64,000 nt of DNA, from the NCBI RefSeq assembly GCF_900102265.1, contig NZ_FNBH01000001.1, positions 682,001 to 746,000 of the forward strand. Reading direction: 5' to 3'. The position numbers were made by a program, and so were the translations under genes. Positions within the stretch are counted from its first letter, which is position 1. Every line of letters starts with the position of its first letter. The notes under the pieces are model-generated. The model ran no database searches. It saw only the letters and a program-made list of their open reading frames with translations, and was not told the DNA's origin. The stretch is from Epilithonimonas hungarica (lineage in GTDB: Bacteria > Bacteroidota > Bacteroidia > Flavobacteriales > Weeksellaceae). Shown here one piece after another: positions 37,544 to 62,083 of the stretch.

Positions 37544-37855
37544 ATGACTACCAAAAACACACCTGATGATTTAGAAATTTGCCCTATGCAGAAACTTTTG
37601 AAACTATTTTCCGGTAAGCTAAAGCCTGAGATATTTCTTCTGGCAACAAAATCTACTTTAAGATTTAATAGTCTGTTACGCGAACTGGAAGGTTCAAACA
37701 AACAATCATTATCAATTGCTTTGAGGGATTTGACAGAAGCAGAATTACTTAAGAAAATTATTATTAGTAAAAAACCTTTACACATAGAATATCATCTTAC
37801 AGAAAAAGGTAGGTCTTTAATTCCTGTCTTTAATCAGTTGGAAGGATTATTTTAA
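37544..37855 (+). CDS. HxlR family winged-helix transcriptional regulator
   Basis: This 103-residue protein starts with the HxlR signature cysteine (EICPMQKLLKLFSGKLKPEI, Cys11). The winged helix-turn-helix follows: RFNSLLRELEGSNKQSLSIALRDLTEAELLKKI, then the wing HIEYHLTEKGRSLIPVF. It is divergent from the large T9SS gene across 178 bases, so that gene is a candidate target. Proteins of this family often sense aldehydes, quinones or oxidants through the N-terminal Cys. Confidence 0.88.
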   Translation: MTTKNTPDDLEICPMQKLLKLFSGKLKPEIFLLATKSTLRFNSLLRELEGSNKQSLSIALRDLTEAELLKKIIISKKPLHIEYHLTEKGRSLIPVFNQLEGLF

Positions 37856-38119
37856 ATTAACTTCTTTTAGAATCCGTTATACCCACTTTTTTTCCGGAAT
37901 GGGTATGTCGATCTTGGGTGCAGGTAAAAAAACAGATCGTTAAATGATTTTTTACCAACTTATTCAAAAATTAAAAAAACAGACCAAAGAATTGATTTTT
38001 TGAAGAACAATCAAATGTTGAGACAAGATCTCAAAAAATATATTCTCTGTGATAGATATGAAAACATTATAAAACAATTATATTTGCACTCATTTTTAAC
38101 AAAAAATATTTATAGACAA

Positions 38120-38296
38120 ATGAAAGAGCTAATCGAAAAGATCAACACAGAATTTGAAGCATTCTCAAAAGAAGCAGAACAACAATCAGAAAAAGGAAAC
38201 AAAGCAGCTGGAACAAGAGCTAGAAAGTCAGCTTTGGAACTTACAAAGCTTTTTAAAGAATTCAGAAAAGTTTCTGTGGAAGAATCTAAAAAATAA
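38120..38296 (+). CDS. Histone H1-like nucleoid protein
   Basis: The 58 residues start at the ATG at 38120 (MKELIEKINTEFEAF). An upstream in-frame extension to 38000 is not credible, because a TATATTTG promoter box sits inside it at 38079-38086. The sequence is Lys/Glu/Ala-rich and helical, with the KGNKAAGTRARKSALELTKL core and the ending KEFRKVSVEESKK. It matches the short histone H1-like proteins of Bacteroidetes, related to chlamydial Hc1. It likely binds and compacts DNA. Two hairpin terminators follow. Confidence 0.88.
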   Translation: MKELIEKINTEFEAFSKEAEQQSEKGNKAAGTRARKSALELTKLFKEFRKVSVEESKK

Positions 38297-38449: not shown

Positions 38450-38818
38450 ATGAAAAATAATTCTCAACCCAATTCTAGAAGTAAAGAAATTACATCCAAA
38501 TATTTCCAATTTTTAGATCAGCATATCGATGATGTTGTTAATGGAAGAGTTTTAGAGTTTATGGAGCTTAATCAAATTGCATCCAAGTTGGCGATTTCCC
38601 ATCAACATTTGACAGATACCGTACGAAAAGAAACAGGAGAACATCCATGCCATTTTTATGATGAAAAAATAATTCTTATGGCGAAAGAGCTTTTGAAAAA
38701 CAAAGAAGTTTCCATTGCAAATATCTCTTTGTCATTGACTTATGATCCATCTAACTTTTCCAAATTCTTCAAGAAATGGACCGGAATAACACCAGGTGAA
38801 TTTCGGAAAAAGGTGTAA
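38450..38818 (+). CDS. Stand-alone AraC-type DNA-binding protein
   Basis: This 122-residue protein contains little more than the AraC DNA-binding domain. The first helix-turn-helix is LNQIASKLAISHQHLTDTVRK (about 40-60) and the second is VSIANISLSLTYDPSNFSKFF, followed by the family end TGITPGEFRKKV. The sensor domain of full AraC proteins is absent, with only about 35 residues in front. It lies 97 bases upstream of the SDR-DoxX-aldehyde dehydrogenase series on the same strand and probably regulates it. Confidence 0.85.
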   Translation: MKNNSQPNSRSKEITSKYFQFLDQHIDDVVNGRVLEFMELNQIASKLAISHQHLTDTVRKETGEHPCHFYDEKIILMAKELLKNKEVSIANISLSLTYDPSNFSKFFKKWTGITPGEFRKKV

Positions 38819-38915: not shown

Positions 38916-39671
38916 ATGTCAACACAAGATGTAAAAGGCAAAGTTGTTTTAATCGCCGGAGGTGGGAAAAACCTTGGTGGATTATTAAGTAAAGATTTTG
39001 CCGCAAAAGGAGCAAAATTGGCGATACATTACAATAGCGAAAGTTCTAAAGCAGAAAGTGAAAAAACCTTGGCAGAAGTTCAGGCTTTGGGAGCAGAAGC
39101 ATTTTTGTTTCAAGGAGATCTGACCAAAGTGGAAAATATCACCAAATTTTTTGATGAGACTATTGCTAAGTTCGGAGGTATAGATATCGCTATCAACACT
39201 GTTGGGATGGTGCTTAAGAAACCATTTACAGAGACGACTGAAGCGGAATATGATACCATGTTCGGGGTTAACTCCAAGTCAGCCTATTTCTTTTTGCAAG
39301 AAGCCGGGAAAAAATTGAACGATAATGGCAAGATCTGTACGATCGTAACTTCATTATTGGCAGCTTATACAGGACTTTATTCTACCTATGCTGGTGCAAA
39401 AGCCCCTGTAGAGCATTTCACGAGAGCGGCTTCTAAAGAATTTGGAAGCAGAGGGATTTCCGTAACAGCGGTTGCGCCTGGTCCTATGGACACACCTTTT
39501 TTCTATGGTCAGGAAAGCGACGATGCTGTAGCTTATCATAAATCTGCAGCCGCTTTAGGAGGTTTGACAAACATTAGGGATATTGCTCCATTGGTAGAAT
39601 TCTTGGTAACAGAAGGTTGGTGGATCACTGGTCAAACGATCTTTGCTAATGGTGGTTACACTACCAGGTAA
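38916..39671 (+). CDS. Short-chain dehydrogenase/reductase
   Basis: This 251-residue classical SDR has the cofactor loop VLIAGGGKNLGGLL, with GGxxxxG slightly altered from TGxxxGxG. AIHYNSESSKAESE, FLFQGDLTKVENI, IAINTVGMVL (replacing NNAG), IVTSLLAAYTG with catalytic Ser, YSTYAGAKAPVEH with Tyr-Lys, and VTAVAPGPMDTPFF follow. It leads the stress-type operon with DoxX, SnoaL-like and aldehyde dehydrogenase genes after a gap of 91 bases. The substrate is unknown; reduction of a carbonyl compound is likely. Confidence 0.9.
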   Translation: MSTQDVKGKVVLIAGGGKNLGGLLSKDFAAKGAKLAIHYNSESSKAESEKTLAEVQALGAEAFLFQGDLTKVENITKFFDETIAKFGGIDIAINTVGMVLKKPFTETTEAEYDTMFGVNSKSAYFFLQEAGKKLNDNGKICTIVTSLLAAYTGLYSTYAGAKAPVEHFTRAASKEFGSRGISVTAVAPGPMDTPFFYGQESDDAVAYHKSAAALGGLTNIRDIAPLVEFLVTEGWWITGQTIFANGGYTTR

Positions 39672-39762: not shown

Positions 39763-40122
39763 ATGATACTGAAAATCATTAACTCTATATTGATTCTTAT
39801 CGCATTATTCATGGGGCTTAAACAAGGGTTCGCCATGTTCTCTGGTAAAACGGAGATGATGGAAATGTTCAGCAAATGGGGATTTTCCAGGACGGGATTG
39901 GCTGTAAACGGGGTCATTACTATGATTGCTGCTATTATGCTGATCTTCCCAAAGACATTTGTCTGGGGTAATTTTATCATGGCTGCCGGGATTCTGTTGA
40001 TCATTTGTTTCCACTTGATAGATAAAGATCTGAAAGGAGTAATGATCGAGTTACCATTTTTGCTACTGAATCTGATTATCATCTATTTGCAACATCCTTT
40101 CAAAGATGGCTTTTTATTATGA
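39763..40122 (+). CDS. DoxX-like integral membrane protein
   Basis: This 119-residue protein has four hydrophobic helices (about 3-20, 48-66, 70-86 and 95-110). Between the first two lies GLKQGFAMFSGKTEMMEMFSK, typical of the DoxX/DUF4267 group, which is linked with oxidative-stress and quinone-related modules. It is the intact relative of the broken copy at 26797-27103. Its stop overlaps the next gene's start by 4 bases (ATGA), which supports an operon with the lipoprotein and aldehyde dehydrogenase. Confidence 0.8.
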   Translation: MILKIINSILILIALFMGLKQGFAMFSGKTEMMEMFSKWGFSRTGLAVNGVITMIAAIMLIFPKTFVWGNFIMAAGILLIICFHLIDKDLKGVMIELPFLLLNLIIIYLQHPFKDGFLL

Positions 40123-40532
40123 GACTTTTATCTTTTATGCTGATAATAGGTTTTACCATTTCGGCATGTGCACAAAAAACTGAAAAAACAATTACAAATC
40201 AAAAACAACAAATAATGGAGTACGACAAAATAACAAATGAGACGGTAAAAAAAGCCATCGAAGCTCTAGAGAACGGAGATAAAAGCTGGTATTCTTACTT
40301 TACAGATGATCCTGTAATGACCGATGATGGCAATAAGGTCGATTTCAAATCATTCTTTGCAAAAGCTTTGGGAGAGGAAAAATTTCTAAGCATTGATAAA
40401 GTTGAGAATGATGGTAAAGATGTCTATGGAAATTTCAAAGCTGGGAAATGGGGCACATTCAGGGTTTTCTTTAAGTTTCATCAAAATACTGAGGGAAAAT
40501 TCGATCGTTTAGATATTGGTCAAGCTAATTAA
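40119..40532 (+). CDS. SnoaL/NTF2-like lipoprotein
   Basis: The 137 residues begin with a lipoprotein signal (FTISACAQKTEK; Cys17). The mature part resembles an NTF2/SnoaL cone fold: a helix (TNETVKKAIEALENGDKSW), YFTDDPVMTDDG, then strands GNFKAGKWGTFRVFFKFHQ. The cavity of this fold typically binds small molecules. It overlaps the DoxX-like gene by 4 bases and lies 15 bases before aldehyde dehydrogenase. A downstream ATG (MEYDKIT, 40215) would give a cytosolic form, but the lipobox makes the full start likelier. Confidence 0.75.
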   Translation: MRLLSFMLIIGFTISACAQKTEKTITNQKQQIMEYDKITNETVKKAIEALENGDKSWYSYFTDDPVMTDDGNKVDFKSFFAKALGEEKFLSIDKVENDGKDVYGNFKAGKWGTFRVFFKFHQNTEGKFDRLDIGQAN

Positions 40533-40547
40533 TCTTTAAAAATACAG

Positions 40548-41924
40548 ATGATGAATAATTATCAATCCATATTCGACCAACAAAAAGAGTTTTTTTATAC
40601 AGATGTTTCCAAAACTTACGATTGGAGGATCGATCAGCTTGACAGGTTGGAAAAAATGCTTACGGATAATCAGGAGGTTTTTTGCCAAGCACTGAAGGCA
40701 GATTTTAACAAGCCTCCGTTTGAACAACTCTTCGAGATCACTGTGCCGTTAGGTAATATAAAATATTATAGGGAAAATTTAAAGAGCCTGATGTCCCCTG
40801 AACAAGTAACAATACCTAAAGGGTTGGAAGAAACAGGTAACAAAGGGATTATCTATAAAGAGCCTTACGGCGTTACATTGGTCATTGGGCCATTCAATGC
40901 CCCCATACTGTTGTTATTAGATCCTGCCATTGCAGCCTTGGCGGCAGGGAATCCGGTCATTCTCAAACCTGCAAATACGACGCCTACTGTTGCTGCTCTT
41001 TTTCAGGAGTTAATTCCTAAATACTTTGAACCGGAAGCTGTTAATATAGTTACTGGCGGAAGAGAGGAAATTACAGAGTTGTTGCAGCTTCCTTTTGATT
41101 TTATTTTCTTCACCGGAAGTTCCGCGGTGGGTAAAGTTGTCATGCGTGCAGCCGCCGAAAATCTTACACCTGTCATTCTGGAACTAGGGGGACAGAATCC
41201 AACAGTGGTAGATGAGACAGCCAATCTGGATATTGCTGCAGACCGTATTGCTTGGGGACATATGGCTATTTCAGGACAATGGTGTATTGCTCCGGGCTAT
41301 GTTTACGTTCATGAGAATATTGCCGATCAGTTTCTTGATAGGCTGAAAGCTGCCATTATAAAAATGTATGGTACAGATCCACAACAAAGTCCCGATTTTG
41401 CAAGGATGATCAGCGAGCATGATACAGAAAGAGTCGCTTCATATATCATTCCTGAAAAAGTTGTTCTGGGAGGACGATATGATATAAAGGACAGATATGT
41501 GGAGCCTACTATCTTATATCCTAGTACGTGGGATGATCCAGCAATGCAGCAAGAGATCTTTGGTCCTGTATTTCCTGTTTTGGTTTATAATGATTTGAAA
41601 GAAATAGTCGAGATAATTAAACGTAAGCCGAAGTCTTTGGCTGCATATTTCTTTAGTAAAGATCAATCCAATATAGATTATTTTCTGAATTCGGTGTCTT
41701 TTGGAGGAGGCTGTATCAATCAAACCAATCTGCATTGCTGGATAGATAGCCTGCCATTTGGAGGTGTGGGCTATGCTGGAATGGGAAAATACTATGGTAA
41801 GACAGGGTTTGATGCTTTAAGCAATACCAAAGCGATGCTGATAGGTAACCCCGACCTGGAGCTGGATGTTTTCCCTCCTTATGCAGGAAAAGATATTGCC
41901 AAGAACCTGAGTGTTTTTGGATGA
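40548..41924 (+). CDS. Aldehyde dehydrogenase family protein
   Basis: This 458-residue enzyme belongs to the class 3 (short) ALDH group, which oxidises aldehydes to acids with NAD(P). GPFNAP at 114-119 carries the conserved Asn117. FFTGSSAVGKVVM binds cofactor. The catalytic Glu212 is in LELGGQNPTVV and the nucleophile Cys246 in SGQWCIAPGY. QEIFGPVFPVL and the terminal SLPFGGVGYAGMGKYYGKTGFD are family landmarks. The ATG of the ion-channel gene overlaps its stop by 4 bases, joining the redox and ion-channel halves of the operon. Confidence 0.94.
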   Translation: MMNNYQSIFDQQKEFFYTDVSKTYDWRIDQLDRLEKMLTDNQEVFCQALKADFNKPPFEQLFEITVPLGNIKYYRENLKSLMSPEQVTIPKGLEETGNKGIIYKEPYGVTLVIGPFNAPILLLLDPAIAALAAGNPVILKPANTTPTVAALFQELIPKYFEPEAVNIVTGGREEITELLQLPFDFIFFTGSSAVGKVVMRAAAENLTPVILELGGQNPTVVDETANLDIAADRIAWGHMAISGQWCIAPGYVYVHENIADQFLDRLKAAIIKMYGTDPQQSPDFARMISEHDTERVASYIIPEKVVLGGRYDIKDRYVEPTILYPSTWDDPAMQQEIFGPVFPVLVYNDLKEIVEIIKRKPKSLAAYFFSKDQSNIDYFLNSVSFGGGCINQTNLHCWIDSLPFGGVGYAGMGKYYGKTGFDALSNTKAMLIGNPDLELDVFPPYAGKDIAKNLSVFG

Positions 41925-42604
41925 TCATAGATTGTATGAACAAAATGATATTAGATTGTCTAAGTAAAAGAAAGTACGAGCTATTGCTTTTAGCATTGAT
42001 ACAACATCTATTTGTAGGAATTTTCCTTACTGACCTTGATTTTTATACAAGGGTCATATGGCCGATCAATATGTTATTATTGGGGTTGGGAAGTGTTTTT
42101 ATATTTACAGGGAAGATGGGATGGCGCCATTGGTTTCGCAATATCCATTTTATAATTGTATTGTTGCTACCTATAGGAATTCCTTTTTTCAAAGATGTAC
42201 CTTGGTATTTTACTTTTCTTAATATTAACTATGTCATATTTTTTGTATTTCTGTTTGTAGAGCTACTCCGTTTCTTGTTAAAGCCTGGATACATTAACAG
42301 CGATATTATTTCTGCATCGGTATGTGGTTATTTTTTGTTAATAGAAATTTCAACATTCTTGTTACAAACCTTTGAGTATCATGATCCTCATTCTTTTAAA
42401 GGAATTGACACTTCATCATCTGCCAGCATTTTCATTGATTTGGTATATTTTTGTTCTATAACCTTTACCAGTATCGGTTTTGGAGATATTACTCCGAATA
42501 TGCATATTACTAAATTAATAACAGCTTTTATCGGCATAGGTGGACAATTTTATACAGTTGTGCTGGTTGGGATTTTAATTAGTAAATTTTCATCCAAAAA
42601 TTAA
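41921..42604 (+). CDS. Potassium-channel-like membrane protein
   Basis: This 227-residue protein has six hydrophobic segments (about 20-36, 47-63, 74-90, 99-118, 130-150 and 197-221). A pore loop and the filter-like sequence TSIGFGD (183-189) come before the last one. Canonical K+ channels have TxGYGD, so Tyr is Phe here, as in some two-pore and bacterial channels. The pore part is like the two-helix Ion_trans_2 domain, preceded by extra helices. It is coupled to ALDH by overlap, and bestrophin starts 6 bases later. K+ or a mixed cation is the probable ion; none can be proven. Confidence 0.82.
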   Translation: MIIDCMNKMILDCLSKRKYELLLLALIQHLFVGIFLTDLDFYTRVIWPINMLLLGLGSVFIFTGKMGWRHWFRNIHFIIVLLLPIGIPFFKDVPWYFTFLNINYVIFFVFLFVELLRFLLKPGYINSDIISASVCGYFLLIEISTFLLQTFEYHDPHSFKGIDTSSSASIFIDLVYFCSITFTSIGFGDITPNMHITKLITAFIGIGGQFYTVVLVGILISKFSSKN

Positions 42605-42610
42605 TTTTAT

Positions 42611-43624
42611 ATGAATATAAGTTCTCACTATAAACTTCAGCATTTTATTCCGTGGACAAGGGTTAAGATATATAAAATGCTTATTCTTAGTGTCATCCCA
42701 ACCCTTTTATTTTATTTCCTTGATTGGAAATGGCTTGCCATCCCTTGGGTGCCTGTTGCGTTGTTGGGAACTGCTACAGCTTTCATTTCAGGATTTAAAA
42801 ATACACAGACCTATAACCGGACTTGGGAAGCAAGACAGATCTATGGAGCTATCATCAATAATAGCCGTGCTTTTGGCATTATGGTCAAGGATTTTGTGAG
42901 AGAGGATGATGAACAGTCGACTAAGATTCATCAAGAGATTATTTATCGTCATTTTGCTTGGCTTACAGCATTAAGATTTCAATTGAGAGAAATCAAGAGC
43001 TGGGAAAATGTAAAAACGAAAAGCTATAATCTGGAATATCTCAAATACTACAAAGTTCCTGAATGGGAAAGTATTTTGGATCAAGAGCTGAAGAGCTTTC
43101 TCAGTGAGGAAGAAAGACAATATGTCCTGTCAACAAAAAATAGGGCTACACAGATCATAGCTATGCAATCTTCACAGCTCAAGAAACTGAATGAAGAAGG
43201 TAAGATATCAGATTATAGTTATGTGGCTCTGGAAAATCAGTTGAAAGAACTGTATGATCAGCAAGGGAAATGTGAGCGTATCAAAAACTTTCCTTATCCA
43301 AGACAATTCTCAAGCATCAATCTCTATTTTACCAATGCACTTTGTTTATTGCTGCCTCTCGGTTTTATAGGAGAGATATCAAAAATGATAGAAAAGTTTG
43401 GTGAGAATATCATTTGGCTTGTAGTTCCTTTCAGTGTATTGCTGGGTTGGGTATTTCTTGTATTGGAACAGATAGGTGAGAGTACAGAAAATCCGTTTGA
43501 AGGAAGTGCCAACGATATTCCGATCACGCAGATCAGTCGCAATATAGAAATAGACCTGCGCGAAATGCTCGGGGAGAAAGAGTTACCTCCGGCAATACAA
43601 CCGAATAATAATATTTTAATGTAA
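42611..43624 (+). CDS. Bestrophin family ion channel
   Basis: This 337-residue protein follows the bacterial bestrophin (UPF0187) plan. N-terminal helices lie at 23-37 and 41-60, followed by GFKNTQTYNRTWEARQIYGA at 61-80. The mid-domain has the QGKCERIKNFPYPRQFS signature at 218-234, helices follow at about 238-255 and 266-287, and the family loop ESTENPFEGSANDIP is at 290-304 before NIEIDLREML. Bestrophins form pentameric anion (including bicarbonate) or, in some bacteria, cation channels. Its immediate neighbour is a carbonic-anhydrase-like protein, which makes bicarbonate an attractive substrate, but this is inference. Confidence 0.92.
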   Translation: MNISSHYKLQHFIPWTRVKIYKMLILSVIPTLLFYFLDWKWLAIPWVPVALLGTATAFISGFKNTQTYNRTWEARQIYGAIINNSRAFGIMVKDFVREDDEQSTKIHQEIIYRHFAWLTALRFQLREIKSWENVKTKSYNLEYLKYYKVPEWESILDQELKSFLSEEERQYVLSTKNRATQIIAMQSSQLKKLNEEGKISDYSYVALENQLKELYDQQGKCERIKNFPYPRQFSSINLYFTNALCLLLPLGFIGEISKMIEKFGENIIWLVVPFSVLLGWVFLVLEQIGESTENPFEGSANDIPITQISRNIEIDLREMLGEKELPPAIQPNNNILM

Positions 43625-43643
43625 ATAAAACACAAACAAAATT

Positions 43644-44378
43644 ATGAGTATAGAAGCTGTTAGAAAATGGTATCCAAAGGCATTAACGTCTATTGATACC
43701 GTAAATCGTCTTTTAGATACAATCGAAAAACATTTAAGCCTTGAACCACATCAGCTCATGCATGCAGATAGTATGTGTTGCGATGATGTGAATGCCATAC
43801 AATATCCGCCAAGGGCATATGAAATGTTAGGACCATTCCATTTGGGAGGTTTGGATGGATACCCATTTGCCGGCATTACCGGGATGAATGCCTTTGCTCA
43901 TCATGTTCCGGAGGACGGAGCGGTGATCATATTTTATGCACCACATATCGGAATTACCAAAGATGGGACTATTGGAGAGATAAGCAGAATAGGTCAATCT
44001 GATAATTCTGCATGTTGTGGCGCTGCAAAAGGTGCATTGGGAAAACTGGCAAATGATAAAATTATCGAAGGTAATATAACCTCTCTTGATTTCCAGATGA
44101 ATACTATAGAGCAGATTTTCCTTCATCAGAAAAATCGCATCATGACTGCTGAAAACCAAATATTTGAAGCTACAGAGGTAATGTATGAAGCTATAGATGA
44201 TAGGATAGAGGTTCTGGTACAGGAAACAAATTACCCCTGTAAATATGTGATTCTGGTAGGGGCTATTTTTATCAATGGTGATAAAGATATGGGATCTTTC
44301 TGCCAGTATAAGAAATTCGAATATATAGATCTGGAGACAAAGGAGAGGAGAAGTCTTATGGATGAATATTATCAGTAA
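43644..44378 (+). CDS. LCIB/LCIC-like (theta-type) carbonic anhydrase domain protein
   Basis: The 244-residue protein resembles the limiting-CO2-inducible LCIB/LCIC family. Residues read: MHADSMCCDDVN at 39-50 (Cys46, Asp48), FHLGGLDGYPFAGITG at 65-80, AFAHHVPEDGAVIIFYAPHIGI at 83-104 (His101) and SACCGAAKGAL at 122-132 (Cys125). The spacing Cys46-His101-Cys125 (55 and 24 residues) agrees with the zinc ligands of algal LCIC as I remember them (Cys162, His217, Cys241). Such enzymes interconvert CO2 and bicarbonate in algae and some bacteria. The gene lies 19 bases after bestrophin and is followed by a strong terminator. No signal peptide is present, so it is cytosolic. Activity is not proven. 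Confidence 0.7.
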   Translation: MSIEAVRKWYPKALTSIDTVNRLLDTIEKHLSLEPHQLMHADSMCCDDVNAIQYPPRAYEMLGPFHLGGLDGYPFAGITGMNAFAHHVPEDGAVIIFYAPHIGITKDGTIGEISRIGQSDNSACCGAAKGALGKLANDKIIEGNITSLDFQMNTIEQIFLHQKNRIMTAENQIFEATEVMYEAIDDRIEVLVQETNYPCKYVILVGAIFINGDKDMGSFCQYKKFEYIDLETKERRSLMDEYYQ

Positions 44379-44380
44379 AG

Positions 44381-44417
44381 AAAAATGGTTCAAATTATTG
44401 TTTGAACCATTTTTTTT
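44381..44417. terminator. Terminator ending the SDR-to-LCIB operon
   Basis: AAAAATGGTTCAAA (44381-44394) pairs with TTTGAACCATTTTT (44401-44414) and a T-run. It also serves the small minus-strand gene ending at 44416. Confidence 0.9.
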
Positions 44418-44634
44418 ATATTAATACGTTTTCATAGATTGGTATTTTTAAAAAGCATTCATAAAATGTTACCATCAAGGTGATATTGTTTTCAGAATAG
44501 ATCTCTAGCTTAGTAGTAGAAAGTAAGCTTGTTTTTCTGACATACATGTCTTCTTCATTCTTTCTAAAACCCTTGTTGTACAAAATCAGATCGGTTTCTT
44601 CTTTTGTTTTGCCAATAAGTTCTTTCAAGGTCAT
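44416..44634 (-). CDS. Small protein of unknown function
   Basis: From MTLKELIGKTKEETD (ATG complement at 44632-44634) the protein has 72 residues; an alternative start at 44670 adds 12. A longer frame reaching into the T9SS gene at 44759 is not credible, because a hairpin lies between (44690-44727). The sequence reads as helix (TLKELIGKTKEETDLILYNKG), turn and beta strands (LEIYSENNITLMVTFYECFLKIPIYENVLI). No family recognised. Start choice is uncertain. Confidence 0.5.
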   Translation of the reverse strand: MTLKELIGKTKEETDLILYNKGFRKNEEDMYVRKTSLLSTTKLEIYSENNITLMVTFYECFLKIPIYENVLI

Positions 44635-51462: not shown

Positions 51463-52398
51463 ATGAAAAATAGACATAAAGGAATCAACATAATATTGGC
51501 AATGTCAATATGGTGTTGCTCAATCGGTTTGATCTCTGCTCAGGCGGGGCAAACCGGTGTTGGCACCAGAAACCCAAAAGGGGCTCTGCACATAGACGGA
51601 GCAAAGGATAATGATACTACTGCACCCACTGCGCCTACAACAACACAGGCCGCGAATGATGTGATTGTAGATAAAACAACTGGCTTTGTCGGCGTGGGCG
51701 TCTTAACCCCTGCAGTACCCCTCGATATGAGGTCTACTGTAAATACTGATAATGCTTTGGGCCTTGGGACTACCACAATGACAGCCGCAGCCGCAGGCGC
51801 AGGTGCGGTGCGATATGATGAAGTAAATGCACCTGTAGGAGCAAAAATTGAGTACTCAGATGGTTCGGTATGGAACAAATTGTATGTGGCCCCCAAAAAA
51901 GTGGTTGTAGTAGCCCGTCAGGTTTCAGGACAAAATATAGGAAATACTGCCGCTGATATCGTTAATTGGACCTTAGATTCTCAGGCAAATAATATTGGCT
52001 TTGCTCCTGCAACGGGTGTGTTTACAGCTCCACGTGATGGAAAGTACACTTTCTTGTTCACTTTTAACCTTGCAGCCACTATGATTGATGATGGTACTCG
52101 GGTTGAATCTCAGTTTTATAGAACTTCAGGAACACCTGCCGTTTTGGCGAGAGTATATAAAACTTTTGGTCACTCAATGAATAATGAAACTGAGGATGGT
52201 CCTTCAGGTTTTAGAATGAAGGATACACAGGCGGGTGGTTCAAGTGTAGCGACATTTACTCTAGCTCAGGGTGCTACAGTTACAGTAAGGATGCTTCATA
52301 ATCTTACAGGGGGAAATATACCGCTAAGAGTGCCAAATAATTCCCTTCCCGATAATCCGGATGCAGGATTTAATAGTTTAACAATTATAGAACATTAA
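51463..52398 (+). CDS. Secreted C1q-like domain protein, copy 1
   Basis: This 311-residue protein has a signal peptide (GLISAQ). It repeats the N-terminal pattern GVGTRNPKGALHIDGAKDND, QAANDVIVDKTTGFVGVGVLTPAVPLDMRS and YSDGSVWNKLY seen in the next two genes. Residues 145-310 read as a jelly-roll of the C1q/TNF type: FAPATGVFTAPRDGKYTFLF, a middle strand with VESQFYRTSG and a hydrophobic last strand SLTIIEH. Three adjacent copies suggest subunits of one structure. Function unknown. Confidence 0.75.
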   Translation: MKNRHKGINIILAMSIWCCSIGLISAQAGQTGVGTRNPKGALHIDGAKDNDTTAPTAPTTTQAANDVIVDKTTGFVGVGVLTPAVPLDMRSTVNTDNALGLGTTTMTAAAAGAGAVRYDEVNAPVGAKIEYSDGSVWNKLYVAPKKVVVVARQVSGQNIGNTAADIVNWTLDSQANNIGFAPATGVFTAPRDGKYTFLFTFNLAATMIDDGTRVESQFYRTSGTPAVLARVYKTFGHSMNNETEDGPSGFRMKDTQAGGSSVATFTLAQGATVTVRMLHNLTGGNIPLRVPNNSLPDNPDAGFNSLTIIEH

Positions 52399-52410
52399 AT
52401 AATACAGATT

Positions 52411-53268
52411 ATGAAAAAGAAAGTGAGTATTATATATCAACTGCTGGCTTGTACTCTGATTTTTTCTACCAGTACTATTGCGGCTCAGACAGGAGTGCTT
52501 ACCCAGAACCCATCTACTACTCTGCATATAGATGCGGCAGATGATAATACAGCTACCATCAGCACTGCTCAGGCAGCAAATGATGTGGTGGTAACTACAG
52601 CAGGTAATTTGGGAGTAGGAGTTTTAGCTCCTGTAACCAAGGTCGATCTTCGTTCTGCAGATCAGAAAGGGATTATAGGTTTAGGTACCAATACGCAAAC
52701 TGCTGCTGCTGCCGGTGCCGGTGCCATACGTTATAATAGCGGTAATTTTTTAGAATATTCTGATGGGGCGAATTGGATTCCTATGGCAACGACAGCACCT
52801 CCCAAAGTGAGCATAAGTGGTACTACTTCAGATGCAACTTATAATATTTCGAATAATACCAGCACTCGTATCAGAACTTGGAGTGTAACAGGAGATACAA
52901 CAGGTGCTTTTAGCAGTACAAATAATGAGTTTACGGCCCCTCGCAACGGGTTCTATCTGGTTTCTTTCAGTATTACTTTGGGACCCAATTCTGGTGCCGG
53001 TGGTGTTATAAACAATAGTACCTTCATAGAAACGGCCATAGAGACCAGTGGGGTAACCACTACCACTATTCCGAAATTCATCACGGTAAATTCTTATCCT
53101 GCATTTCAGGCCAGTACTATCAGAAATTACATAAGTGGTAACTGCAATGGTATTTTTTATCTCAATCAAGGGTCAAAGATTTTTTTTACTGTTAAGCATA
53201 CCACAGGCGGAACAAGAACAGTTTTGAATGATGCCACATTAAACAACTTCAGCATCCAAGAATTATAA
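52411..53268 (+). CDS. Secreted C1q-like domain protein, copy 2
   Basis: This 285-residue protein has a signal ending STIAAQ. Shared blocks with copies 1 and 3: TGVLTQNPSTTLHIDAADDN, AQAANDVVVTTAGNLGVGVL, TQTAAAAGAGAIRYNS, LEYSDGANWIPM. The C1q-like half shows NEFTAPRNGFYLVSFSITLG and the last strand NFSIQEL. It is 12 bases downstream of copy 1 and 11 bases upstream of copy 3, so the three form one transcript. The copies have diverged considerably, which argues for specialised subunits rather than recent duplication. Confidence 0.75.
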   Translation: MKKKVSIIYQLLACTLIFSTSTIAAQTGVLTQNPSTTLHIDAADDNTATISTAQAANDVVVTTAGNLGVGVLAPVTKVDLRSADQKGIIGLGTNTQTAAAAGAGAIRYNSGNFLEYSDGANWIPMATTAPPKVSISGTTSDATYNISNNTSTRIRTWSVTGDTTGAFSSTNNEFTAPRNGFYLVSFSITLGPNSGAGGVINNSTFIETAIETSGVTTTTIPKFITVNSYPAFQASTIRNYISGNCNGIFYLNQGSKIFFTVKHTTGGTRTVLNDATLNNFSIQEL

Positions 53269-53279
53269 AAAGCATTACA

Positions 53280-54179
53280 ATGAGAATATTACAACATAAA
53301 ATAAAAGGTTTTGGAAGTGCTTGTTTACTGGTATTGTTTGGAACACAAGTATATGCCCAGATGGGAGTAGGTGAACTTTCACCAGGAAATCCTACCGAAA
53401 TTGTGACCACTGCAGGTAAAGTAATTGTAGATAATACAGGAAAAATAGGGGTGATGGTCGCCAGTCCTAAAGTAGCTATAGATTTGCGTAGCAGCGGTAC
53501 CAATCGTTCAGTAGCCATAGGAAATACTACCCAGACAGCTGCAGCTGCCGGTAAAGGCGCATTGCGATATGTAAACAGCCCGGCTATCGGGGTTTTGGGT
53601 TATCTGGAATATTCAGATGGTACCAATTGGGTAAGCTTTTTTCCTTATGGCAAACCGCGTATTGTGGTAATGGCAAATAAAACGACGCAGAACACGGAAG
53701 TATTTGAAGGAGCTGATTCAGGTCCTAAAACGGGTTTAATGCAGCGCCGTTCTTCTTATCTTACGAACTGGTCAGAGATATCAGACACCGATTCTGGTGT
53801 AGCAACTGGGATTAATAATTTCAATCCTACTACAGGAGAGTTTGTTGCGCCGAGAGCAGGGGTATATTTTGCCACTTTTACCTATGCGCTTGCAAATCAG
53901 GTGGTAGAGGCAGGTGCTAATGTTCAGACAGAAGCGATTTGGGAGGTGAGAAATTCATCTGGGACGATTACCCAAAGGGTAAAAACCAACAATGGTTATG
54001 CTTCCAATTCGGGAAGCAACCAACAACCAGTCGGTTCTGCCTGTACGGTAAGTGTTTATTTAAATCAAGGGGATAAGCTAAGACCTTTTTCCTGGATCTC
54101 TACCAGATTTAGCGATACTGACCTTAGTCAGTTTGAATCCTCGGGAGTATACAATGCTCTTACGATTGTAGAGCAGTAG
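53280..54179 (+). CDS. Secreted C1q-like domain protein, copy 3
   Basis: This 299-residue protein has a signal ending QVYAQ. It carries MGVGELSPGNPTEIVTTAG, TGKIGVMVASPKVAIDLRSS, TQTAAAAGKGALRY and LEYSDGTNWVSF. The C1q-like part has GEFVAPRAGVYFATFTYALA, VSVYLNQGDKLRPFSW and the final NALTIVEQ. After it come 117 bases carrying an 11-bp inverted repeat before the next gene. Confidence 0.75.
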   Translation: MRILQHKIKGFGSACLLVLFGTQVYAQMGVGELSPGNPTEIVTTAGKVIVDNTGKIGVMVASPKVAIDLRSSGTNRSVAIGNTTQTAAAAGKGALRYVNSPAIGVLGYLEYSDGTNWVSFFPYGKPRIVVMANKTTQNTEVFEGADSGPKTGLMQRRSSYLTNWSEISDTDSGVATGINNFNPTTGEFVAPRAGVYFATFTYALANQVVEAGANVQTEAIWEVRNSSGTITQRVKTNNGYASNSGSNQQPVGSACTVSVYLNQGDKLRPFSWISTRFSDTDLSQFESSGVYNALTIVEQ

Positions 54180-60443: not shown

Positions 60444-60476
60444 AAAAGAGCTTCCAGATTTGGAAGCTCTTTTTAT
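60444..60476. terminator. Bidirectional terminator
   Basis: AAAAGAGCTTCCA (60444-60456) pairs perfectly with TGGAAGCTCTTTT (60461-60473). It separates the + strand small genes from the convergent antiporter gene. Confidence 0.9.
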
Positions 60477-62083
60477 TAATGGAAGTTAGGATTTATTTTC
60501 AGATCGTTCAGGTCAAGCTGTAATTCTGCTTTTCGGATTTCCTCATCGTCATAGTACTTTTCGCGTCTCATTTGGAAGATCTCGAGTCTTTGCTTGTCGT
60601 AGATTTCCTTAAGGATCTCTGAGAATTTATCAATCTCCTGTGTCGTACAATTATTACATTCCAAAAGGTCGAGCTGATTTTCTGTGTTCTCGGTTTCAAT
60701 AGAGATCTGAGTTTGATAATTTTTCAAAAGATTGCTTTTTTGAATGACCTCAGAATAATTTTTGTTGATATGATTAAGAGCAAGACGGTTCAATCTGATC
60801 TGTATCTGAGCTTCCTGTTGTTCCTGTGGCAGAACAACATCCATCGATGGCATTTTGAGTTTTTTTACAATAAAAGGTAAAGTAAGTCCTTGGATCACTA
60901 ATGTTATAAAAATTACGATGAAGGTAATGAAAAGAATCAGATTTCTATGAGGAAAAGCTGTTCCGTCTGGTAATGTAAACGGGATGGAGAGTGCAGTTGC
61001 AAGCGAAACGACCCCTCTCATTCCTGCCCAACCGATAACAATTGGTCCTTTCCAGCCCGGAGATTGTTCTCTTCTCACCGATTTGAAAAGCCATCTTGGG
61101 ACAAATGCTGCTGGATAGATCCATAAAAACCGGATAGCAATAGCAACAATACTGATGATAACGCCATATTTAATACCTTCTATTAACGATGCTTCTTCCA
61201 GGCCATGAATGATCGAGGGAAGGGATAATCCAATGAGAATGAAAACCATCGCATTCATTACAAAAATAACGGTTGTCCAAACACCTAGCATATTGAGGCG
61301 GGTATTTCCATTTTTGAAGATCTCATGAGATCTGTAGGAGATGAAAAGTCCGCCCGTAACCACGGCCATCACTCCGGAGAAATGGAATTGCTCCGCGCCT
61401 AGATACAGCATGTAGGGTGTCATTATTGTAAGTGCGGCATCAATAGCAGATGTGGTGGGTAAAAATCTATGGATGAGATACATGATACCTGCGCCGATTA
61501 GCCCAACCACGATTCCCATTCCTGCTACAAGAAAGAATTGTCCAACAGCCTCATGCATTGAAAAGCTGCCTGTCAATATAGCCGCCAGAGCAAACCGGAA
61601 AACTATCAGTGATGATGCATCATTGACCAAGCTTTCACCTTCTAGAATACTTACAATTCTTTTTGGAACAGGCAATCCTTTAAGGACAGATGTTGCAGCA
61701 ACTGCATCCGGTGGAGAAATAATTCCCCCTAATAAAAAACCAAGCGCTAATGTAAACCCCGGAATCATTGCTTTAGAAAGATAAGCGACGATCAATGAGG
61801 TTGCAAATACCAATCCGAATGCCAACAAGGAAATTGGCCTTTTCCATTTCCAGAAGTCGTTCCAAGAGGTGTACCACGCTGCTTCGTAAAGTAATGGAGG
61901 GAGAAAGATCAGGAAAACCAATTCCGGATCCAGCTCTATCTCTGGAATTCCGGGTAAAAAACTGATGATTAATCCTGCCAGCACCAGAAAAATTGGATAG
62001 GCGATCTTCATTTTTTTTGCTACCATTACCATCATGAAAACAGAAAAAAGTAATGCGAGTATCAACAATAAATTATGATGCAT
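60476..62083 (-). CDS. Na+/H+ antiporter, CPA1 family
   Basis: This 535-residue transporter is predicted to exchange Na+ for H+ across the inner membrane. It has about 12 hydrophobic segments over residues 1-420, then a cytosolic helical tail of about 110 residues (LNRLALNHINKNYSEVIQ and following). Family motifs: FLPPLLYEAAW (about 58-68), GGIISPPDAVAA (about 118-129) carrying the ion-binding Asp, EGESLVNDASSLIVF (about 146-160, with the ND pair) and GWAGMRGVVSLATAL (about 352-366). The gene is monocistronic and convergent with the small genes at 60 kb. Confidence 0.93.
   Translation of the reverse strand: MHHNLLLILALLFSVFMMVMVAKKMKIAYPIFLVLAGLIISFLPGIPEIELDPELVFLIFLPPLLYEAAWYTSWNDFWKWKRPISLLAFGLVFATSLIVAYLSKAMIPGFTLALGFLLGGIISPPDAVAATSVLKGLPVPKRIVSILEGESLVNDASSLIVFRFALAAILTGSFSMHEAVGQFFLVAGMGIVVGLIGAGIMYLIHRFLPTTSAIDAALTIMTPYMLYLGAEQFHFSGVMAVVTGGLFISYRSHEIFKNGNTRLNMLGVWTTVIFVMNAMVFILIGLSLPSIIHGLEEASLIEGIKYGVIISIVAIAIRFLWIYPAAFVPRWLFKSVRREQSPGWKGPIVIGWAGMRGVVSLATALSIPFTLPDGTAFPHRNLILFITFIVIFITLVIQGLTLPFIVKKLKMPSMDVVLPQEQQEAQIQIRLNRLALNHINKNYSEVIQKSNLLKNYQTQISIETENTENQLDLLECNNCTTQEIDKFSEILKEIYDKQRLEIFQMRREKYYDDEEIRKAELQLDLNDLKINPNFH

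Follow-up and report, generated by a model that had tools for sequence, protein, structure and literature searches.

Three adjacent genes of Epilithonimonas hungarica, lying in a stretch of 64,000 nucleotides (RefSeq assembly GCF_900102265.1, contig NZ_FNBH01000001.1, positions 682,001 to 746,000 of the forward strand; the whole of it is referred to as the window), encode a K+-channel-like protein, here named KCH, a bestrophin, and a protein of the LCIB/LCIC family of carbonic anhydrases (CA). The operon to which they belong is horizontally transferred, and both partners of the bestrophin are exchangeable: the cation partner between KCH and a CPA1-type Na+/H+ antiporter, the CA between LCIB and canonical beta-CA. 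Bestrophin, CA and cation conduit are likely to be functionally linked, and it is proposed, with somewhat less than even confidence, that KCH, bestrophin and LCIB act together as a single module, a regulated potassium bicarbonate outlet which would acidify the cytosol. The three genes are located in the window as follows:

41921..42604, + strand: KCH, K+-channel-like protein, 227 aa, filter TSIGFGD (Pfam Ion_trans_2, 5.8e-10)
42611..43624, + strand: bestrophin, 337 aa, neck T/F/F (Pfam Bestrophin_2, 1.9e-45)
43644..44378, + strand: LCIB/LCIC-type candidate CA, 244 aa (Pfam LCIB_C_CA, PF18599, 1.2e-66)

A sequence-only reading of the window had described these genes, together with the aldehyde dehydrogenase (ALDH) gene preceding them, as a run of four with overlaps or gaps of at most 19 bases, and had assigned the four protein families, the channel filter TSIGFGD and the bestrophin loop ESTENPFEGSANDIP. 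The open reading frames (ORFs) were confirmed at those positions, all four family calls score above the Pfam cut-off, and both motifs are present as read. ORF coordinates give an overlap of 4 bases between ALDH and KCH, a gap of 6 between KCH and bestrophin, and one of 19 between bestrophin and LCIB. The wider operon and the two swaps of partners go beyond that reading.

The link between bestrophin and LCIB had initially been a supposition, to be abandoned if the neighbourhood proved peculiar to this genome. Scanning contigs for close relatives of the window LCIB protein yielded 44 named loci, taken to be Bacteroidota, in part by title or lineage, and including Chryseobacterium, Epilithonimonas, Sphingobacterium, Chitinophaga, Dyadobacter, Runella and Siphonobacter; being found by LCIB identity, the set is biased to near kin. 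In 39 of the 44 a bestrophin gene precedes LCIB on the same strand, at a distance of 137 bases or less in 34 of these 39, so that the adjacency is more than chance. The neighbourhood is thus found in many genomes, and the supposed link is borne out. In Epilithonimonas caeni DSM 17710 the bestrophin is 96% and the LCIB protein 97% identical to that of the window. A small ORF separates the two genes in L017, L033 and L034, and the bestrophin frame of L039 is broken. In L033 and L034 the intervening ORF encodes a PDDEXK_3 protein; a 23S rRNA-intervening-type protein follows the bestrophin in L017, and similar-looking short ORFs precede the bestrophin in L017 and L043.

A tree was built on the joined LCIB and bestrophin alignments (39 rows, L039 left out). 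The tree mixes families: the 35 family-labelled rows belong to 8 families and need 14 changes. The approximately unbiased test rejected a single clade for the 14 rows of Weeksellaceae (p-AU 5e-96), the window row being assigned to that family from its nearest row. LCIB is rare in samples drawn regardless of bestrophin: 7 of 148 relatives carry it, one of them scoring below cut-off, as do 18 of 395 genomes sampled from the class and 35 of 395 from the phylum, the window genome counted in each. When loci were sampled on LCIB alone, 9 of 52 (window included; some of the 52 coincide with named loci) showed a bestrophin match in the flanking 1.5 kb. These nine belong to the 16 loci whose LCIB is at least 50% identical to that of the window, and no locus with a more distant LCIB has such a match. 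At 6579-7943 of L103 (G029), KCH and a 149-aa LCIB ORF, matching residues 96-243 of the window protein, occur with no bestrophin between them, in what looks like a decayed operon copy. An apparent bestrophin-LCIB fusion in L107 and L108 (ORFs of 573 and 338 aa) was discarded, the N-terminal part being an out-of-frame stretch in GC-rich DNA and the profiles hitting LCIB alone.

The position before the bestrophin is taken by KCH in 24 of the 39 loci and by a CPA1 Na+/H+ antiporter in 11, and never are both found there (hypergeometric 8e-7, kinship uncorrected). On the tree, the KCH/CPA1 label requires at least three changes, counted without L021, L022, L041 and L046, and a single origin of the CPA1 type was rejected (10 rows, p-AU 1e-8), some of these rows being long-branched. 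In a Pfam search of the L034 copy, the replacing antiporter matches Na_H_Exchanger alone (6.3e-56); in the CPA1 loci L017, L039 and L043 small ORFs intervene between antiporter and bestrophin, and in L017 and L027 the antiporter is in more than one piece. TMEM175 (Pfam) is found alongside KCH in L013 and L033, in the latter between KCH and bestrophin.

Selectivity filters of K+ channels have the general form T/S-x-G-Y/F-G. The KCH filter, [FL]TSIGFGD in all 25 copies (window counted), follows this form, and is aligned to LSIGYGD of SK2. KCH is described as K+-channel-like, with a putative tetrameric pore and K+ current. Its Pfam match is Ion_trans_2 only, and a KTN domain was not found. In L009, L014 and L016 the SDR-ALDH part before KCH is replaced by genes for an amino acid kinase and for an acyltransferase/GNAT protein (Pfam on the L014 copies). 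At 6113-8176 of L018, KCH is directly preceded by the genes of an SBF-family transporter, of DUF6428 and of a low-molecular-weight phosphatase, a group resembling an arsenic resistance operon. The window itself contains a CPA1-type Na+/H+ antiporter gene (535 aa, 60476-62083, - strand), 16 kb from the operon and in the same cluster as the antiporters which replace KCH elsewhere.

The exchange of the CA was noticed in 20 loci carrying a window-like bestrophin (48-61% identical) and no LCIB, one of which yielded no bestrophin ORF. In several of them a gene of about 210 aa adjoins the bestrophin. Ten adjoining proteins were run on Pfam, and six are canonical beta-CA (Pro_CA, 4.3e-49 or better); a seventh beta-CA neighbour, in L156, is on the opposite strand. 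The 215-aa gene after the bestrophin of L159, CA-like by size, has no Pfam match and was set aside. Pro_CA was then searched in 80 genomes picked for carrying window-like bestrophins. A CA lies within 1 kb of 18 of the 108 window-like bestrophins (window included), namely 13 beta-CA and 5 LCIB, with the CA on the same strand in 17 cases; it lies so close to none of 61 other bestrophins among the matches listed for these genomes, which are not all their paralogs (Fisher 1.8e-4, and 0.0022 for beta-CA alone). Of the 13 bestrophins beside a beta-CA, six are outside the 20 loci where the idea arose. The 108 are the best matches, down to E 1.5e-67, of a search scoring at most five candidates per genome in its first pass; weaker or shorter rows were left out, among them G378, a partial bestrophin match beside LCIB. 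G445 was excluded as outside the set, and for the control G333:C2 the only beta-CA of the genome is on another contig.

In L161 a Castor/Pollux-type ion channel, a bestrophin and a beta-CA follow one another with gaps of 12 and 14 bases, and would supply the same three functions from outside the KCH and LCIB families. In loci lacking a CA, the bestrophin overlaps a TMEM175-like gene (L154) or follows CPA1 (L157 and L167), according to home-made profiles. A beta-CA gene immediately precedes the LCIB gene, without bestrophin, at 5133-6699 of L113 (G365). No LCIB match was found in 72,556 plasmid records, and window-like bestrophins are present on 119 of them, all below 60% identity. Five plasmid loci were opened, two of them unannotated; among the three annotated ones, Ohr and an FAD oxidoreductase are near one bestrophin, aldo/keto reductase and NTF2-family genes surround another, and the third has neither. 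In phages, four weak matches (27%) were detected.

The window bestrophin scores 156 bits against Bestrophin_2 (cut-off 27) and matches bestrophin chains of the PDB, down to 3.2e-27. PDB entry 4wd7 is the channel KpBest. The neck is T/F/F in all 39 LCIB-linked bestrophins (window and 38 named loci, L039 being left out for its broken frame) and, in a pattern-based reading, in all 39 readable further relatives; none of the linked bestrophins has the KpBest-type I/I/F neck. The two bestrophin paralogs of the window genome, the only controls whose necks were checked, have L/I/F and F/L/F. KpBest is a Na+ channel with neck I62/I66/F70, shifted to Cl- selectivity by I66F (PMC8496536). An anion preference is a fair prediction for the whole T/F/F subfamily, beyond its CA-linked members; it remains a prediction because the polar first neck residue is unlike those of KpBest (I/I/F) and of animal bestrophins (I/F/F). 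The window protein shares with KpBest and the eukaryotic BEST/BST channels the Bestrophin_2 profile and an alignable pore helix, and differs from them in its T/F/F neck and its genetic link to a CA.

The product of the gene at 43644 falls inside the LCIB family, where a placement outside would have refuted the original call: it scores 224.6 bits against PF18599 (cut-off 25) and matches the PDB chains of 6kfs (2.7e-26) and PtLCIB4 (4.4e-21). Its AlphaFold2 model, built on 27 sequences, has a confidence score (pLDDT) of 93.8; by Foldseek it matches PtLCIB4 (5b5y, TM-scores 0.81/0.83; 5b5y_A, E 1.6e-18), with 24-25% identity in the structural alignment, and more weakly Chlamydomonas LCIB (0.73/0.79, better chain). 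Judged by profile and modelled fold, membership of the LCIB/LCIC family holds. Residues C45, D47, H87, R115 and C125 are invariant across the linked LCIB copies, 39 in all, from the window and from 38 named loci (alignment only). H87 is aligned with H88 of PtLCIB4, and the site of its S47 is occupied by C in 38 copies and S in one, never by R. We take C45, H87 and C125 to be the Cys-His-Cys zinc ligands, and D47 and R115 the Asp/Arg pair. By this alignment the ligands anticipated by the sequence-only reading are apparently in place, and the gene product is predicted to be active as CA. For comparison, a review reports PtLCIB3 and PtLCIB4 as apparently constitutively active and the in vitro activity of Chlamydomonas LCIB as not quantified (PMC9614477). 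The window protein is like the theta class LCIB/LCIC CAs, PtLCIB4 being among the nearest solved, in fold, Cys-His-Cys and Asp/Arg residues and the small residue at the S47 site; it differs in being encoded by a bacterium without a RuBisCO match, in an operon with channels.

In the window, the three genes follow a series of accessory ones. Their features are listed below, together with the number of sources in which the cluster is found (45 sources, the 44 named loci and the window):

38450..38818, + strand: short AraC-type helix-turn-helix regulator, 122 aa (Pfam HTH_18, 6.6e-17); 15/45 sources
38916..39671, + strand: SDR family oxidoreductase, 251 aa (NCBIfam NF009385, 2.3e-132, above cut-off); 20/45 sources
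39763..40122, + strand: DoxX-like membrane protein, 119 aa (Pfam DoxX_2, 1.4e-07); 29/45 sources
40119..40532, + strand: presumed SnoaL/NTF2-like protein, 137 aa; 23/45 sources
40548..41924, + strand: ALDH, 458 aa (Pfam Aldedh, 2.5e-85); 12/45 sources
44378..44417, + strand: intrinsic terminator-like hairpin with T run (folding of 44375-44425)

The DoxX-like and SnoaL-like genes overlap by 4 bases, and the latter ends 15 bases 5' of ALDH, all on the + strand; the SDR and AraC-type genes are further upstream on the same strand. The SnoaL/NTF2-like label is one we assume, as a Pfam search of the window copy gave nothing above cut-off; L017:5416-5862, alike in position and of another cluster, matches SnoaL_2 at 0.001, below cut-off. 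Directly 3' of the LCIB stop, the hairpin folds at -19.5 kcal/mol, against -4.9 for shuffles (z -6.4). The likely unit comprises AraC, SDR, DoxX, SnoaL, ALDH, KCH, bestrophin and LCIB, the last six tightly packed, and is presumably co-transcribed. A promoter search of seven short stretches, using a Bacteroidota consensus, found a single -7-like element, within the gene of a histone H1-like Hc1 protein (38000-38296, + strand; Pfam 2.8e-21), and none nearer. Upstream of the island an HxlR-type regulator is encoded (37544-37855, + strand; Pfam 4.2e-13), which may share in its control. Elsewhere in the window, three adjacent ORFs of about 285-311 aa (51463-54179, + strand) are grouped by similarity into a single cluster, and L008 and L038 have relatives of them.

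In the proposed mechanism, LCIB would hydrate intracellular CO2 to HCO3- and H+, and the bestrophin, anion-type by its neck, would pass HCO3- outward, down the inside-negative potential. K+ would leave through KCH as counter-ion (elsewhere through TMEM175 or a Castor/Pollux-type channel), and the retained H+ would acidify the cytosol; in the CPA1 version the antiporter would exchange cation for H+ inward, with the same pH direction. HCO3- is the presumed conducted ion because a CA adjoins an anion-type channel; a passive channel for it would work as an exporter because the membrane is inside-negative, and H+ would be left behind because the exported HCO3- is made from CO2. The direction of the flux and its trigger are what we infer from this scheme, and the acidifying direction is the best single reading, held at slightly under even odds. 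The most likely use would be to protect the cell for a short time from reactive aldehydes or other electrophiles, or to correct alkaline stress, and ALDH and SDR would be the detoxifying enzymes that go with it. Three loci have a DJ-1/PfpI cluster (Pfam on one member), L046 has a glyoxalase-family protein, and beside bestrophins lie OsmC (L171), a pyridine-nucleotide-disulphide oxidoreductase (L163) and ALDH (L173); together with ALDH and SDR, these fit an electrophile/redox setting, which is suggestive only.

Kef systems protect cells from electrophiles by releasing K+ and acidifying the cytosol, a drop in pH from about 7.8 to 7.4 being sufficient (PMC10224563). The outcome proposed here is alike (K+ out, cytosol acidified), and so are the neighbours resembling electrophile/redox enzymes; KefB and KefC, in contrast, are CPA2 antiporters with a KTN domain, a combination found neither in KCH, which is a channel in which KTN was not found, nor in the swapped-in antiporter, and here H+ would come from CO2 hydration. 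The animal bicarbonate transport metabolon likewise couples CA to a route for HCO3-, and the likeness extends to a cation/H+ exchanger where CPA1 is present; the metabolon differs in that here the bestrophin would be the HCO3- pathway, in a single mobile operon, and the direction is probably opposite. A broader idea, of a mobile modular KHCO3 exporter in which a T/F/F bestrophin joins with any cation conduit and any CA to make a fast cytosolic pH-drop switch with metabolic CO2 as acid source, a Kef analogue of unrelated parts, is speculative and rather unlikely as it stands.

Several observations weigh against the acidifying outlet. If the membrane potential is strongly negative, a K+ channel would admit K+ for as long as HCO3- efflux had not depolarised the membrane, and CA activity, HCO3- conductance and flux are all predictions. 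The structure model of KCH (23 sequences) is poor (mean pLDDT 53.5), and before 4 of the 39 bestrophins neither KCH nor CPA1 is found. No bestrophin is seen in five of the 44 named loci (L026, L044, L045, L051 and L048, whose contig starts inside LCIB), within 1.5 kb in 7 of the 16 loci with LCIB at least 50% identical, or within 1.5 kb in any of 24 LCIB loci from another class of the phylum. No CA is found within 1 kb of 90 of the 108 window-like bestrophins; as these have T/F/F where read, the bestrophin family is not dedicated to HCO3-. Ten further bestrophin neighbours run on Pfam include no channel and no CA, and the tables of the three annotated plasmid loci list neither CA nor cation channel. 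Finally, the electrophile link is weak, since the ALDH cluster occurs in just 12 of 45 sources.

The main competitor is CO2/bicarbonate acquisition, where LCIB would trap CO2 as HCO3- for carboxylases, or bestrophin would admit HCO3- for equilibration by LCIB. CA and bestrophin genes are indeed linked, and the Chlamydomonas CO2-concentrating mechanism (LCIB with BST1-3) uses the same two families and, if our reading is right, the same two substrates; the review cited above has both serving acquisition there (PMC9614477). The window genome, in contrast, has no match to the RuBisCO large subunit (PF00016) and two additional beta-CA genes, so that inorganic carbon supply is an unlikely purpose, and the operon is not a CO2-concentrating mechanism. 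Moreover, an inside-negative membrane would favour efflux through a passive anion channel, the third partner is a cation conduit, and the patchy distribution of LCIB (7/148 relatives) ill suits a housekeeping need. Acquisition is thus judged improbable. Of the algal parallel drawn by the sequence-only reading, the protein families stand and the purpose falls; among the uses it suggested, bicarbonate supply is disfavoured, and pH control or ion balance is the better fit.

Osmotic or turgor release, with KHCO3 leaving on hypo-osmotic shock and CA refilling the anion as in the regulatory volume decrease of animal cells, would also suit a cation conduit paired with an anion-type channel and having CA neighbours; CPA1 in place of KCH in 11 of 39 loci is better suited to pH or Na+ control, and mechanosensitive channels already handle hypo-osmotic release, which makes this a quite improbable explanation. 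The same antiporter in the cation position could instead point to removal of acid, a task that Na+/H+ exchangers (NHE), bicarbonate transporters and CA perform together in animal cells. That direction is given an equally small chance, as the window version has a channel, which could not drive H+ out, and a bestrophin channel could not concentrate HCO3- inside. Strong horizontal transfer, variable accessory genes and the 90 window-like bestrophins with no CA neighbour would all be expected if the linkage were a by-product of a mobile island of functionally unrelated genes; the core order is kept while CA and cation partner are swapped for other families of like function, and none of the 61 other bestrophins among the listed matches has a CA neighbour, so that this explanation is very improbable.

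To our knowledge, the physiological role of bacterial bestrophins is unsettled, and a literature search covering titles and abstract starts, bioRxiv preprints and most subscription papers excepted, found no such bacterial gene set. The large T/F/F subfamily, which carries the residue favouring anions in its neck and has some members beside CAs of two families, offers a concrete, testable role, HCO3- conduction, predicted for the linked bestrophins; if true, T/F/F bestrophins would include bacterial bicarbonate channels. Bacterial LCIB proteins gain a context outside photosynthesis, in a gene set spread between species which may be a switch lowering the inside pH of the cell under stress.

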